From positions 16,408 to 80,407 of the forward strand of contig JANQGM010000012.1 in NCBI GenBank assembly GCA_028277345.1: a DNA stretch of 64,000 bases, written 5' to 3'. This document shows positions 19,101 to 64,000 of this stretch, in pieces. Position numbers and translations under genes: made by a program. This DNA comes from Candidatus Bipolaricaulota bacterium (lineage in GTDB: Bacteria; Bipolaricaulota; Bipolaricaulia; UBA7950; UBA9294). Within the stretch, counting starts at the first letter, position 1; each line of letters opens with the position of its first letter. The notes beneath the pieces were generated by a model. It saw only the letters and a program-made list of their open reading frames with translations. It had not been told where the DNA came from and searched no databases.

Positions 19101-20477
19101 ATGACTGACTATGCATCGCTGAAGCATCAAATCGATGAGGGTGGGATTGCGTTCGTCGATTTCCGGATTGCCGATTTTGCCGGACGATTTCGGCACCTGA
19201 CCATTCCTTCCGCCCGATTCACGCCGCAACTGATCGCAGAAGGTTTGGGGTTTGATGGGTCCAATTACGGCTACCGCGCAGTCGCCGGGAGCGATATGGT
19301 GCTTATCCCCGATTTGGCGTCCGCCTATGTCGAAGAACGTGGCGGTGAGAAGGTTCTGTCGGTCATTGCCGATATCCATGACGCTGAGACGCGCCAGCCT
19401 GCAACCATCGACCCTCGAGGGATCGCCTCGTCTGCCATCGACTATGCGCGAACGGCGGGGATTGCGGATGATGTCCGAGTCAGCCCGGAGTTCGAGTTCT
19501 ACGTGTTCGACGATGTGTTCTATGACACGGAAAACGGAACCAGCTGCATTGAGATCCAGCCGGCTGAAGCGTGCGACCACCGCCGGGGCATCGGCAATAC
19601 GCCGCAATCCGCCTATCATGCGCCCTTGCATCAAGACCGGCTGTTCGATTTTCGCTGTGATGTTGCGCGGCAAATCGAGCAAGCCGGAATCCCTGTGAAA
19701 TATCATCATCACGAGGTCGGCGCCTTCGGACAGCAGGAGATCGAGCTGGGATTCGATTCTCTCGTTCGCATGGCGGATGCGACGTTTATCGTCAAATCGC
19801 TCGTTCACAACACGGCCGTCGAACGGGGCTTGACGGCCACGTTCTTGCCGAAACCGATGCACGGAGAAGCGGGCAACGGCATGCACCTTCATCAGTACAT
19901 GGTGAAGAATGGGGAGAACGTGTTCGCGGCGGATGATGGATTATCCGAACTGGCGTTGTGCTATGTCGGCGGATTGCTCAAGCACGGCCGTAGCTTGATG
20001 GCTTGGACGAACCCGTCGACCAACTCCTTCCGGCGCCTTGTTCCCGGCTTCGAAGCGCCCGTTCATCTTGTTTTCGGATCGGCGAATCGAACGGCCGCGG
20101 TGCGGGTCCCCGCCTATGCTCGAGGCGATAAGCGGCGAATCGAATTGCGGACCATGGATGCGACGTGCAATCCCTATCTGGCGTACGCGGCGATCGTGAT
20201 GGCGGGCATCGATGGGATTGAGCGTGGCCTGAACGCGAAAGACCTAGGATTCGGTCCCTTTGAGACCGACCTCTACGAGAAGAATCATGGCGAAGCGGCG
20301 CCACGCAGCCTTGGCGAAGCGCTGGATTGTCTTGAGGAAGATCACGCCTACTTGAGGCGAGGAGACGTTTTCTCCGAAGAGGAGATCGAGCATTGGATTC
20401 GAACCAAACGGGCAGATGTCGAGGCACTGGCGCAACGCCCCCATCCCCATGAGTACGTCATGTACTACGACCTCTAA
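19101..20477 (+). CDS. glnA: Glutamine synthetase family protein
   Basis: FVDFRIADFAGRFRHLTIP, EFEFYVFD, NGMHLHQYM, RLVPGFEAPVHLVFGSANRTAAVRVP. Confidence 0.9.
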   Translation: MTDYASLKHQIDEGGIAFVDFRIADFAGRFRHLTIPSARFTPQLIAEGLGFDGSNYGYRAVAGSDMVLIPDLASAYVEERGGEKVLSVIADIHDAETRQPATIDPRGIASSAIDYARTAGIADDVRVSPEFEFYVFDDVFYDTENGTSCIEIQPAEACDHRRGIGNTPQSAYHAPLHQDRLFDFRCDVARQIEQAGIPVKYHHHEVGAFGQQEIELGFDSLVRMADATFIVKSLVHNTAVERGLTATFLPKPMHGEAGNGMHLHQYMVKNGENVFAADDGLSELALCYVGGLLKHGRSLMAWTNPSTNSFRRLVPGFEAPVHLVFGSANRTAAVRVPAYARGDKRRIELRTMDATCNPYLAYAAIVMAGIDGIERGLNAKDLGFGPFETDLYEKNHGEAAPRSLGEALDCLEEDHAYLRRGDVFSEEEIEHWIRTKRADVEALAQRPHPHEYVMYYDL

Positions 20478-29037: not shown

Positions 29038-30117
29038 ATGCGAACCGGGACCTCAGACCTTCCTCTTCATCACGGACGCGCGCCTCGATGGCTCTTCTCG
29101 CGGATGACTCAATTGGCGGGGTCGATTACGGAGTTGATGATTCTCGAACACGGAGTTCCTGGGCTGTTCGACCGTTTATCCAACCCCTATTGGTTCCAAT
29201 CCTTGGGGTGCGTGCTTGGGTTTGATTGGCATTCCAGTGGTGTCACGACAACGACATGCGGCGCGATCAAGGAAGGCATCAAGGGACGCGAACGGGAGCT
29301 CGGCCTCTTTGTTGCCGGGGGCAAGGGGGCGGCATCCCGAAAAACGCCGGCCGAGATTGCGGCATGGGGCGAGCGTGAGGGAACGGATTCGGCTCGACTG
29401 ACCGATGCCAGCCGCACGGCGGCCAAGGTCGACAGTTCGGCCGTTCAAGACGGCTACCAGATTTATCATCATGTGTTTCTGTTCGACCGAGATAACCAAT
29501 GGGTGGTCATTCAGCAGGGCATGAACGAGAGCAACGGCTATGCGCGGCGGTACCATTGGCAATCTTCTGCGGTGACGGATTTCGTCAATGAGCCTCACAC
29601 GGCCATCTGTTGCGATCGTCGCCAGCTGACGCTCAACCTGGTGGCCGCATCGAGCGAATCGACGCGGCATGCCAGCCACGAGCTGACGCAGTCGAAGCCA
29701 ATCGCTCTCATTCAGGAGCTGTACAAGCTCAAGTCGCTCAAGCTTCCACGACGACACGAGATCCTCATGTCGGACATCTCGCCGCGCCGGATGGAGCGGA
29801 TCTTTCTCAAGACCTATGAGGCGCATCCGGAAAGCTTCGTGGAGCTACTATGCTTGCCGGGCGTGGGCGCAAAGACGCTTCGCGCGTTATCGCTCATCGC
29901 GGAGTTGGCCTATGGTGAAGCGCCCAGTTACGAGGATCCGGCGCGCTACGGATTTGCGCATGGTGGCAAGGACGGAATTCCCTTTCCCGTCGATCGTTCG
30001 CTGTACGACCAGACGATCGATCTGATGTCGCGTGCGATCCGAAAGGCCAAGTTGGGACAATCGGATGAGCTCAAGGCACTGCGCCGAATGGAGCGGGCGT
30101 TCAATCACCCTTCGTAG
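29038..30117 (+). CDS. DUF763 domain protein
   Basis: MRTGTSDLPLHHGRAPRWLFSRMTQLAGSITELMILEHG and PYWFQSLGCVLGFDWHSSGVTTTTCGAIKEG are characteristic of DUF763; HhH-like LLCLPGVGAKTLRALSLIAEL. Confidence 0.85.
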   Translation: MRTGTSDLPLHHGRAPRWLFSRMTQLAGSITELMILEHGVPGLFDRLSNPYWFQSLGCVLGFDWHSSGVTTTTCGAIKEGIKGRERELGLFVAGGKGAASRKTPAEIAAWGEREGTDSARLTDASRTAAKVDSSAVQDGYQIYHHVFLFDRDNQWVVIQQGMNESNGYARRYHWQSSAVTDFVNEPHTAICCDRRQLTLNLVAASSESTRHASHELTQSKPIALIQELYKLKSLKLPRRHEILMSDISPRRMERIFLKTYEAHPESFVELLCLPGVGAKTLRALSLIAELAYGEAPSYEDPARYGFAHGGKDGIPFPVDRSLYDQTIDLMSRAIRKAKLGQSDELKALRRMERAFNHPS

Positions 30118-30234: not shown

Positions 30235-31620
30235 CTACTTATGAACCCGCTTCATGAAGTCCTCGATCTCCGGCATGCCGCCTTGGAAGACAAGGTACCC
30301 ATCGTGGGGCTCCCGCTCGGTAATCTCTCCGCAAATGGGGGTGAGCATCAGGGATTTAACCTTCTCCAGGTCATCGGTTTGCCCCAGCGCCCATCCCAGC
30401 TTGATATAGGCGACCTCCGGAAGCATGTTCTCGGTTGGAATGATGCCCTTGGCCATCAGATCGCGCCCCGTATCGTAGACGAACATGTGCACGTATCCCC
30501 ATAGCGTTTGCACGGTCATGTAGATGGCGACGCCCGCCGCCGTCGCGCGCTCGATGGCCGGATAGACGGGCTTGTTGACGTGTCCGAGTCCGGTTCCCGC
30601 GATGACGATGCCCTTGTAGCCCACATCGACGATGGCATCGATGATGTCCGGATGCATGTTCGGGTAGTAGTAAAGCAGTGTGACACGATCCTCGAATGTG
30701 GGAAGAATAGCGACCTCGCGATCGGTTCGCCGTGGATTGTAGTCCGAGCGCAACGGGACGACGCCCTCCCGGGTGACGGTTGCCAGCGGCGTATCGCCGA
30801 TGGTGCGGAAGGTGGAACGATACGACGAGTGCATTTTTCGGACGCGCGTCCCCCGATGCAGGAGTCCGTACTCATCGGAGGTCGGTCCGAACATGCAGAC
30901 CATGACCTCGGCGATATCCGAGGTCGCTGCCGTGGTCGTTGCGTGAATGAGATTTAGCGCGGCATCGGACGACGGACGATCGGACGAGCGCTGCGAGCCG
31001 ACCATGACGATGGGAACGGGCGAGTTTTGGACCATGAACGCGAGCGCGCTGGCCGTGTGGTGCATGGTGTCGGTCCCATGTCCGACGACGATGCCATCGA
31101 TGCCGTTTTCAATCTCCTGGCCGATGGCGCGGGCCAAGGTCTTGTATTCGTGGGGGCCCATGTTCTCCGAGAAGACGCCGAAGAGTTTCTCGGTGGACAG
31201 GTTGCAGATATCGGCCAGTTCGGGAACCGCGCCGTAGAGCTCGCCCGGAGAGAAGGCGGGAATGACCGCGCCTGTGCGATAATCGAGACGCGAGGCGATC
31301 GTTCCTCCAGTGCCCAACAGCTTCACATAGGGCTTGTCGGGAGAAACGGGAAACTCCTTTTCCGGGATCTTGTAATGCGCTTCCTTCGATCCCTTTATCG
31401 CGACGGCGGTAATCGTACGAACGTCAATGCCGACGTTGTAGCCGGTCGAAAGCTTCAAGACGAGATGTCGAGAATCGTCAAACTCCGATCGAGGGAGAAT
31501 GATGCCCCGGAATTCGCCGCGCGTCGTCGTCAGGATGACGTCGTCCCATACTCCGAATGAAAACGCTTCCAGCGTCTCCAGGGATTCGCCGCGATAGCCT
31601 TTGGTGCGTTCGTCGCTCAT
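30235..31620 (-). CDS. gatD: Glu-tRNA(Gln) amidotransferase subunit D (asparaginase-like)
   Basis: KLLGTGGTIASRLDYRTGAV, VVGHGTDTMHHTASAL, N-terminal GatD-type beta-domain; start overlaps the gatE stop. Confidence 0.9.
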   Translation of the reverse strand: MSDERTKGYRGESLETLEAFSFGVWDDVILTTTRGEFRGIILPRSEFDDSRHLVLKLSTGYNVGIDVRTITAVAIKGSKEAHYKIPEKEFPVSPDKPYVKLLGTGGTIASRLDYRTGAVIPAFSPGELYGAVPELADICNLSTEKLFGVFSENMGPHEYKTLARAIGQEIENGIDGIVVGHGTDTMHHTASALAFMVQNSPVPIVMVGSQRSSDRPSSDAALNLIHATTTAATSDIAEVMVCMFGPTSDEYGLLHRGTRVRKMHSSYRSTFRTIGDTPLATVTREGVVPLRSDYNPRRTDREVAILPTFEDRVTLLYYYPNMHPDIIDAIVDVGYKGIVIAGTGLGHVNKPVYPAIERATAAGVAIYMTVQTLWGYVHMFVYDTGRDLMAKGIIPTENMLPEVAYIKLGWALGQTDDLEKVKSLMLTPICGEITEREPHDGYLVFQGGMPEIEDFMKRVHK

Positions 31621-33566
31621 GCGCGCTCCATTTCGTCGATCCAGTTGCTCAGGGATGACAGGCGAAGGTTGCCGAGGGCGTGCTTCCGCAGTTGTCCCAT
31701 GATCCAATTGCGCATCGCGTATGGCGATCGTTGACGCTTTCGCGGAGAAAACTGCTCGGCGAGCCCGGGAATTTGCTTGCGAAGAGCCTCTCCCGTGATT
31801 GCCGAGTACCCCACCTCGCGCAACAGGGCGTCCAACGTCGGCGACGTTGAGTTGTAGCCGCGCGCGATGAGAACGGGAAGGATATCCCGGTCGAGTCCGC
31901 GTTTCCGAACGTCGTCAGCTAGGGCGACCAGCCAAGTGAGATCTCCCGGACGATCGCCGCAGACGGATCGCAGGGTATGTCCGAGCAGCGCGCCGGCGTA
32001 CGCCGGATCCCACCCGTTGACAATCAAGCTACGAAGGGTGGGAAGCAGATTTCGCTTGAGGATGAAGGCATGACAATCCTCAGGAATATCCCAATCAGCG
32101 AGCGCTTGGCACATGGCTTCCACCGGTTCAGGCAGTCCCGCTCGGATCGTCTCGATGTCCTGTTCGTCAATGGGAATGGGGGCGGAATCGGTGTCCGGAT
32201 ACATGCGGTCGGGGCCGGGAAGGACGCGTTCAAAGAGCGTGGTTCCATCGGCCAGCGCTTTGCGTGTTTCATTGGGTACCCCAGCGAAAGCCAGTTGGCA
32301 GCGTTCGATGACGGTGTCGATGGCCGTTTCCATGTCCGCGGAGGGACCCCACAGCAGGATCTGGGCGTCACGATCGCTTGCTCCCAATGTCTTACGGATT
32401 GAATCCCATGGAAGCTGAGTCGATGCCTCTTCCGAATGGGCGAGATTCGGTTTTTCGATGCAGGCGACGACCTTGAGGCGGTCCGACAGTTCGTCGGCGA
32501 AACAACGTCCGGGGTTGGTGAAATGGGCAAGAAGGCCGCTGAATCCGGGCAGATTCAATGCCATGGCCGCTTCGGGCTCGACTCCCACGGGAAGTAGGTG
32601 TGCGTGGTCTTTAGGGCGGCTGGCGTGCGCCTGCGCTGACCAGTCCTGGATTTCAGTCTCCGTGAAGCGCGATCGCAACGTCTCGCGGATGGCCAACAGC
32701 GCTTTCTGTCGGAAGGCTTCATTGTGCGTGAGGTCGGGAATCCAACGGATGTGCTGAACGCCCTTGATCTCAACGCGCGTGCCGCCATCGATGCTGACAT
32801 TGACGTCTTCGCGGCCCGCTCCAATCCCGACATTCACCTTTCCGGTGCTGCGCGCCAAGAAGCGGATGTAATGCGCGGCCTCTCGGGCTTCATCGGGGGT
32901 TAGCAGGTCAGGGTAGGTGACGGTTTCCACGAGCGGCATCCCCAGTCGATCCGTGGAGTAGATGCGCTCGTGCCCGATGTCCGAGACTTCTCGGCACGAA
33001 TCCTCTTCGATGCTCAGCTGTAAGATGCGCACGGGTTTCGTTTTCAGAGGAATGCTTCCGTGGATGCCGACGATGGCCGTCCGCTGGAAGCCGGTGGGAA
33101 TACTGCCATCCAGATATTGCTTTCGTGTGATATGCAGTTCGCCGACAACTTGGGTTCCGAGTAGAAGCGCGATTTCGATGGCGATATTGAGGGCCTCCCG
33201 GTTCATGGGAAAGGGAGGGGTATCATCGATGTCGTACGTACACGCTGTTTCTCCGAGGATTCGGTAGATGATGTTCTTTCGCGTTTTGAACTCCATCAAC
33301 GCTGTGCCATCGTACTCGCCGAGTTCGCTGAGCGTTGGCCGCATATGGCGGACGAGTTGCGCGTCGTAGGACTCACCGTCCTGATAGCGACCGGCAGGGC
33401 AGCGGCAGAAAAGCTTGCGCGCCGTCTTCAGTTGCTGGTGAACTTCCAGACCGCAACGGAATCCCAAATCGCGATACAGCGATGGCTCAGCCACTTTGCG
33501 AGAGACGTAGCCGACGCGTGCTAGGGTCTCCAGGTAAACGCTCCCCGGATTGTCGGAATCACTCAT
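31617..33566 (-). CDS. gatE: Glu-tRNA(Gln) amidotransferase subunit E (archaeal type)
   Basis: GFRCGLEVHQQLKTARKLFCRCPAG, YDIDDTPPFPMNREALNIAIEIALLLG, GSIPTGFQRTAIVG, and full length ~649 aa fit GatE. Confidence 0.9.
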   Translation of the reverse strand: MSDSDNPGSVYLETLARVGYVSRKVAEPSLYRDLGFRCGLEVHQQLKTARKLFCRCPAGRYQDGESYDAQLVRHMRPTLSELGEYDGTALMEFKTRKNIIYRILGETACTYDIDDTPPFPMNREALNIAIEIALLLGTQVVGELHITRKQYLDGSIPTGFQRTAIVGIHGSIPLKTKPVRILQLSIEEDSCREVSDIGHERIYSTDRLGMPLVETVTYPDLLTPDEAREAAHYIRFLARSTGKVNVGIGAGREDVNVSIDGGTRVEIKGVQHIRWIPDLTHNEAFRQKALLAIRETLRSRFTETEIQDWSAQAHASRPKDHAHLLPVGVEPEAAMALNLPGFSGLLAHFTNPGRCFADELSDRLKVVACIEKPNLAHSEEASTQLPWDSIRKTLGASDRDAQILLWGPSADMETAIDTVIERCQLAFAGVPNETRKALADGTTLFERVLPGPDRMYPDTDSAPIPIDEQDIETIRAGLPEPVEAMCQALADWDIPEDCHAFILKRNLLPTLRSLIVNGWDPAYAGALLGHTLRSVCGDRPGDLTWLVALADDVRKRGLDRDILPVLIARGYNSTSPTLDALLREVGYSAITGEALRKQIPGLAEQFSPRKRQRSPYAMRNWIMGQLRKHALGNLRLSSLSNWIDEMERA

Positions 33567-33788
33567 TCATCAGCCTCATCCCCTGAGCCGGCGGCTCATT
33601 ATGGTGCGGAAAGGGTAGTTGACAGCTTCGTGCAGGGCAAGGTCTCGAAGCCTACGATGGGGCGCCGGAGTGTAATCCTCGTAACTCTCGGATGGGCTGA
33701 TCCACAGTATACTATGGCGACTGCGGGTACGATCCAATCGGGTGTCGCAGTCGTGATGGGGGTATTCCGAACGGGAGGTAGGGGTCGG

Positions 33789-34586
33789 ATGAATACGACA
33801 TTCTTAACGTGGTTAGCTGTTGCTGCTGTTGTGGGTGGAGCCTTGCTGCTCTTTCTGGGGGTTCCGGGCGGGCAATCGCCGCAGCCTTTGGTCTTGGAAG
33901 ATGTGCCGGCCGATTCAGTCATTCAAGTCGAAGACGACTATTGGGAGCCCGTGACCGCCACTGCCCCGCGCATGCAGGGAACCTACGCATCGCCTGTTTC
34001 AGTTCCTGTCACGACATCGTCGTCATCGCCGTGCAGTGCCTGCGGGATTTCGCATACGATGACCATAACATCGACGGCTACGGCTTCGCTGACGGCGGTT
34101 CGTCCGCCTGCGGCGGCGCCGTGTTCAGCCTGCGGATCGAGTCACGCGATTGCCCCGGCATTGCCGTGCCGTGCGTTGACGTCCCCATGCTCCCGCGGAT
34201 ACGACCATTCGTGCACGCAACGTCCTGCGAGCGCATGTGCGCCTGGTCCTTGCTCCGGCCTGCCCGCCGGATGTGGAAATCCGTGCGGAAGCACGTGCCC
34301 GCTTGATAAGCCGGGGATCAACCGGAACATGGATCTGTGCGTGGACGAGTGTACGTTCCTTCAACTTCATACGACGATCCCCTACCCCATCTGCCAGGAT
34401 ATCTGTTTCGAATGGACGACCAGCAAAGGGTCGTTCCTCGATCCGACAGCCGCGAATCCCATCTACTATGCGCCGACGACGCACTTTGACGATGGCGAGG
34501 ATGTGTGGGTCGTGGTGAAGATCACGGATGGCAAGGGCAAACAGTACGTCGATCAGCTCAAGCTGCATATTGTGAACGTTCGCTAG
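33789..34586 (+). CDS. Cysteine-rich membrane-anchored protein with PKD-like C-terminus
   Basis: N-terminal TM MNTTFLTWLAVAAVVGGALLLFLGV; repeated PCSACGxSH; C-terminal Ig/PKD-like segment. Confidence 0.7.
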   Translation: MNTTFLTWLAVAAVVGGALLLFLGVPGGQSPQPLVLEDVPADSVIQVEDDYWEPVTATAPRMQGTYASPVSVPVTTSSSSPCSACGISHTMTITSTATASLTAVRPPAAAPCSACGSSHAIAPALPCRALTSPCSRGYDHSCTQRPASACAPGPCSGLPAGCGNPCGSTCPLDKPGINRNMDLCVDECTFLQLHTTIPYPICQDICFEWTTSKGSFLDPTAANPIYYAPTTHFDDGEDVWVVVKITDGKGKQYVDQLKLHIVNVR

Positions 34587-63929: not shown

Positions 63930-64000
63930 TGGGAGATCGTCTAATGGTAGGACAGCGGGTTCTGGTCCCGTAAGTGAGGGTTCGAATCCTTCTCTCCCAA
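63930..64000 (+). tRNA. tRNA-Gln (anticodon CTG)
   Basis: TGGGAGATCGTCTAATGGTAGGACAGCGGGTTCTGGTCCCGTAAGTGAGGGTTCGAATCCTTCTCTCCCAA; acceptor TGGGAGA/TCTCCCA; loop TTCTGGT. Confidence 0.93.

Follow-up and report, generated by a model that had tools for sequence, protein, structure and literature searches.

Archaeal-type GatDE genes form a widespread bacterial clade nearly always accompanied by glutaminyl-tRNA synthetase

Background

The GatDE amidotransferase is described as now found only in archaea, a distribution linked to the absence of GlnRS there, and the fit of GatDE to archaeal tRNA(Gln) has been invoked to explain why archaea never adopted GlnRS (2022 review, PMC9499178). The same review gives the discriminator base as A73 in archaeal and G73 in bacterial tRNA(Gln) (PMC9499178). 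GatDE has also been listed as an archaeal signature protein (2022 review, PMC8762117), and tRNA(Asn) is reportedly never a substrate of the archaeal enzyme (PMC7541841). A 2014 survey knew of no bacterium encoding both routes to Gln-tRNA(Gln) (PMC4206432).

Here we analyze a stretch of 64,000 nucleotides, referred to at its full length as the window, from a Bipolaricaulota MAG (2.76 Mb, 40 contigs, 89.6% complete). The window contains the following two genes.

31617..33566, minus strand: gatE, Glu-tRNA(Gln) amidotransferase subunit E, 649 aa, with kinase/transamidase core, AspRS-like insert, helical and tail regions
30235..31620, minus strand: gatD, 461 aa from the ATG at 31620, asparaginase-like ammonia generator with a GatD_N domain and a bacterial C-terminal extension

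Results and Discussion

The two genes and their products

A preliminary description of the locus, made from the sequence alone, had called both genes full length and translationally coupled. Both points hold: the gatD ATG overlaps the gatE stop TGA at the junction ...GCGCGC-ATGA-GCGACG, and the start listed for the open reading frame, at 31707, is an upstream TTG in the same frame as the ATG at 31620. In profile searches GatE scored 389.9 bits against TIGR00134, above the cut-off of 319.55, and 448.2 bits against NF003107, slightly under the cut-off of 456 yet with an end-to-end alignment, while its score against the gatB profile TIGR00133 was 113.5 bits, far under the cut-off of 314.8. GatD scored 509.5 bits against TIGR02153 (cut-off 324) and 510.6 bits against NF003217 (cut-off 310), and contains the domains PF18195 (GatD_N, 48.5 bits), PF00710 and PF17763. 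Its top matches in the PDB are GatD chains (404 bits), the best asparaginase reaching only 146 bits.

A profile of bacterial GatE (43 sequences) covers residues 3–616 of the 619 residues of M. thermautotrophicus GatE. The first PDB matches of an AlphaFold model of the window GatE are the GatE chains of 2d6f and 1zq1, with GatB next, at modest TM-scores (0.53/0.64). Helices reach the C-terminus of the model, which has a mean pLDDT of 78 and low confidence in several stretches of the catalytic core. The full GatE architecture, including the C-terminal tail region, appears to be present, a reading based mainly on sequence given the modest TM-score.

The GatD motifs GGTIAS, HGTDT and VRKMH (39 bacterial sequences for these asparaginase motifs) and the GatE motifs GLEVH, CxC (C54/C56) and EED (E187/E188) are invariant or nearly so in the bacterial clade. 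We take the residues of these motifs to be catalytic, following established knowledge of asparaginases and of GatB/GatE, and their conservation suggests that the chemistry of bacterial GatDE is most likely intact.

Phylogeny and distribution among bacteria

Comparison with asparaginase and GatB outgroups had been set in advance as a test of the identification, and GatD does not group with asparaginases, nor GatE with GatB. In the GatE tree the bacterial sequences form a clade (support 98/98) that is separate from three archaeal GatE (100/99), and the GatB outgroup is split off at 100/100; a larger quick tree gave support of 81 for the bacterial clade. Bacterial GatD also form one clade (SH-aLRT 100), with a single asparaginase on a long branch as outgroup. 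Profiles, catalytic residues and trees together make it nearly certain that the window proteins are members of the GatD and GatE families and not asparaginases or GatB. The bacterial GatE and the three sampled archaeal GatE, namely two chains of solved structure and the N-terminal portion of a Natrinema sequence with a frameshift, are placed as sister clades, which may reflect inter-domain transfer or deep retention. Within the bacterial part of the GatE tree, Cloacimonadota and Clostridiaceae each form one clade and Bacteroidota nearly one, and the window GatE nests inside the Bipolaricaulota clade.

A single GatE query found 378 related loci in GTDB species genomes, a count in which archaeal and distant copies are underrepresented because the query was bacterial. 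The best 80 of the 378 are all bacterial by title and come from more than 12 phyla; the groups among them are Bipolaricaulota, Atribacteria, Aminicenantes, Zixibacteria, GN15, Acidobacteria, Cloacimonadota, Planctomycetes, Calditrichaeota, Lentisphaerae, KSB1, Bacteroidota, Edwardsbacteria, Deltaproteobacteria/Myxococcota and Clostridiaceae. Cultured carriers include Clostridium sp. CF012, Oceanirhabdus (a complete chromosome) and Perlabentimonas. GatDE is therefore a distinct bacterial clade and not a peculiarity of the window genome. The earlier identification of archaeal-type GatD/GatE in a bacterial chromosome is thus confirmed by profiles, motifs and trees, and was incomplete in that it overlooked the wider bacterial clade.

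In nearly every locus examined (~80) gatD comes next after gatE, in the same orientation, and this adjacency, with the ATGA overlap, shows that the two subunits are encoded together and co-conserved. Identity to the window proteins over many phyla is 71–89% for GatD and 52–68% for GatE; conservation of this strength indicates that selection maintains GatDE as an enzyme of two subunits. The ~80 loci showed no partner genes conserved from phylum to phylum. An origin of gatDE in mobile elements was rejected: phages and plasmids yielded no GatE match over most of the query, and the matches there were GatB-like, with the exception of a frameshifted gene carried by a Natrinema megaplasmid.

Genomic setting

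The genes around gatDE are bacterial (trigger factor, ClpP, HAD, CysS), as the preliminary description had stated. A DUF763 protein (PF05559, 430 bits; window 29038-30117, plus strand) adjoins gatD, and its proximity to gatDE is retained in several of the phylum's MAGs (L010, L016, L017, L020). In the window's genus, gatE and the HAD gene are separated by the gene for a conserved protein of 260–380 aa with no Pfam match (window 33630-34586, plus strand). About 10 kb from gatDE there is a glutamine synthetase match (PF00120, 339 bits; window 19407-20465, plus strand). In one related genus (G124), glnS lies next to gatE, the two being transcribed divergently and separated by 281 bases (L184:81-4117).

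Co-occurrence with GlnRS and GatB

The window genome encodes GlnRS in full (705.8 bits to TIGR00440, cut-off 425.8), so that direct synthesis of Gln-tRNA(Gln) is possible, together with one bacterial-type GluRS, an AsnRS and a bacterial AspRS. It also has an archaeal-type asparagine synthetase A (PRK06462 family; L009:1477-2409, minus strand). Of the genes singled out earlier for a genome-wide search, glnS is present and gatA and gatB are absent: no GatB was found in this 89.6% complete genome, where GatE is the sole GatB-family protein, and no GatA, the sole amidase being of the PRK08137 type (223.5 bits against a cut-off of 481). At that completeness the search for GatA and GatB thus gave no sign of a GatCAB (GatA, GatB and GatC). 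GatDE is therefore not the sole Gln-tRNA route in this genome and would be an extra one.

Across 50 GatDE-bearing bacterial genomes, GlnRS scored above the cut-off in 45, appeared as fragments in four more and was missing from one MAG, by a profile whose cut-off was passed by only 4 of 14 well-known control genomes. The proposal of a non-standard Gln-tRNA route that substitutes for GlnRS or GatCAB is consequently unsupported in that form, with GlnRS full in the window genome and full or fragmentary in 49 of 50 other carriers. GatB was absent from 42 of the 50 and present together with GatE in eight.

Within the window's phylum (100 genomes), GatE is confined to the window's family (15 genomes). 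GatB occurs in 0 of 15 GatE-positive compared with 49 of 85 GatE-negative genomes (p ~2e-5, uncorrected for relatedness). GlnRS was found in 13 of the 15 GatE-positive genomes, the remaining two being incomplete, and its association with GatE within the phylum has p = 0.024, again uncorrected for relatedness. Several genera of the family encode GlnRS but lack both GatE and GatB. In the GlnRS tree (read without rows L194 and L211, which have very long branches and are probably in the wrong reading frame) the genera without either amidotransferase interleave with GatDE carriers and have the same GlnRS lineage, which indicates that GatDE is dispensable. GatDE was probably lost several times within the family, or gained repeatedly. 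In Clostridiaceae, GatE is present in 6 of 215 genomes, five of those without GatB.

The window genome has two glutamine synthetase matches, one of them within the window, and the synthetase family was present in 49 of 49 genomes tested. Glutamine supply is therefore not the reason for GatDE, and a role in providing free glutamine where glutamine synthetase is missing is ruled out.

The tRNA(Gln) genes

A possible substrate is encoded at the end of the contig, where it was detected by both Rfam and ARAGORN, the Rfam match spanning contig positions 80337-80407.

63930..64000, plus strand: tRNA-Gln(CUG), with U1-A72, A73 and a tRNA-Glu-like D-stem

Both tRNA-Gln genes of the window genome (the second at L116:1501-1572) have discriminator A73 and U1-A72. 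In tRNA-Gln(CUG), A73 extends across the window's family, in GatE-positive and GatE-negative genera alike, and G73 is found in the other families of the phylum that were sampled. We rejected A73 as a marker of GatDE carriers, as it represents at most one change, also seen in GatE-negative genera, and affords no test. The A73 pattern fits past adaptation to GatDE and does not show it.

The tRNA-Glu-like D-stem (GTCT...GGAC) is found in tRNA-Gln(CUG) over much of the phylum (L128:1500-1571, at the window end, and its relatives L142-L161), and tRNA-Gln(UUG) differs (GCCA...AGGC). Of the phylum's 100 genomes, 32 have the Glu-like D-arm pattern, and most of these lack GatDE; within the family the pattern is present in 6 of 15 GatE-positive against 3 of ~18 GatE-negative genomes (p ~0.24, computed with 17). 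The D-arm is not associated with GatDE, and the notion that GatDE is needed because GluRS mischarges a Glu-like tRNA-Gln(CUG) is unsupported as a GatDE-specific trait.

Possible roles of bacterial GatDE

These results lead us to propose that bacterial GatDE is an active Glu-tRNA(Gln) amidotransferase that supplements GlnRS as a second or repair route, a reading to which we assign a probability of roughly 0.55 and for which we infer substrate, activity and repair role. With GlnRS and glutamine synthetase both present, such a role on Glu-tRNA(Gln) is the simplest one. Most Gln-tRNA(Gln) would be made directly by GlnRS. GluRS, or GlnRS itself, would at times place Glu on tRNA(Gln); GatE would use ATP to phosphorylate the side chain of this Glu, GatD would release ammonia from Gln or Asn and hand it to GatE, and GatE would form Gln-tRNA(Gln), thereby preventing Glu at Gln codons. 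Several points count against the proposal: archaeal GatDE is fitted to archaeal tRNA(Gln), from which bacterial tRNA(Gln) differs, the co-occurrence of GatDE and GlnRS is confounded by phylogeny, and the Glu-like D-arm of tRNA-Gln(CUG), a candidate cause of mischarging, shows no association with GatDE.

We can only tentatively suggest that GlnRS and GatDE amount to two complete, parallel Gln-tRNA(Gln) routes in one bacterial cell, with tRNA(Gln) identity (for example the change from G73 to A73) shaped by GatDE. If true, this would contradict the view of GatDE as an archaeal signature that excludes GlnRS.

It is rather improbable that GatDE provides the main route, with a non-discriminating GluRS and a GlnRS that is secondary or specialised for one isoacceptor. 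The A73 of both tRNA-Gln genes, as reported for archaeal tRNA(Gln) (PMC9499178), and the tRNA-Glu-like D-stem of tRNA-Gln(CUG) would suit such an arrangement, but many genomes of the same family lack GatDE, keep the same GlnRS lineage and have A73 too, and the Glu-like D-arm likewise appears in genomes without GatDE.

Less probable still is a change of substrate, in which bacterial GatDE amidates Asp-tRNA(Asn) or another misacylated tRNA and replaces a lost GatCAB. This notion is consistent with the scarcity of GatB among carriers and with the fact that GatE and GatB never occur together in the phylum. However, GatB and GatE are found side by side in the eight carriers noted above, AsnRS and asparagine synthetase A give the window genome other routes to Asn and Asn-tRNA, and the reported restriction of archaeal GatDE (PMC7541841) speaks against service to tRNA(Asn).

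A role outside translation, for example as a tRNA-gated asparaginase/glutaminase or in the amidation of peptides or metabolites, has slightly poorer prospects. Redundancy with GlnRS and the membership of GatD in the asparaginase superfamily would be in keeping with it, but essentially every locus retains GatD along with both the catalytic core and the tail region of GatE, and the loci have no partner genes conserved across phyla.

Finally, an assembly chimera or archaeal contamination, suggested by the 40 contigs of the MAG and looked for as a threat to the identification, has a negligible probability and is refuted by the cultured carriers, including the complete Oceanirhabdus chromosome, by the position of the window GatE inside the Bipolaricaulota clade, and by the gene order cysS, HAD, one family, gatE, gatD common to independent MAGs (L010-L012), to which L010 adds DUF763 and tig.

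Comparison with known systems

The statement that GatDE occurs only in archaea, in cells without GlnRS, does not describe the bacterial carriers with GlnRS; it is a claim about occurrence and not a defining property of GatDE. A widespread bacterial clade nearly always found with GlnRS contradicts the archaea-only statement (PMC9499178), and bacteria with both GatDE and GlnRS are candidates against the survey's statement that no known bacterium encodes both routes (PMC4206432). We found no description of bacterial GatDE in the open-access papers searched; databases probably label the genes gatD and gatE already, and the clade and its link with GlnRS seem unrecognised in the literature searched. 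The clade is relevant to how old tRNA-dependent glutamine synthesis is and how it has been transferred, and the cultured carriers make its role testable.

The bacterial pair resembles the archaeal enzymes of Methanothermobacter thermautotrophicus (2D6F) and Pyrococcus abyssi (1ZQ1) in its two subunits, domains and catalytic motifs and in full-length alignment including the GatE tail region, with identities of about 47–50% (GatD) and 36–39% (GatE). It differs from archaeal GatDE in the fixed gatE-gatD order of the bacterial clade, in an extra N-terminal extension of ~30 residues in GatE and a conserved C-terminal extension GYLVxQGGxPEvexF in GatD relative to the archaeal chains, and in its coexistence with GlnRS, which is reportedly absent from archaea. 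With bacterial GatCAB it has in common the GatB_N catalytic domain and the chemistry of GatE and GatB, whereas ammonia comes from an asparaginase-like GatD here and from an amidase there. The nearest bacterial parallel is that of Bdellovibrio and Deinococcus, which have GlnRS, AsnRS and GatCAB and thus also retain a tRNA amidotransferase beside direct synthetases (PMC4206432). There the reason is tRNA-dependent Asn synthesis where asparagine synthetase is lacking (PMC4206432), whereas the window enzyme is of the Gln-specific type and its genome has both glutamine synthetase and an AsnA-type enzyme.
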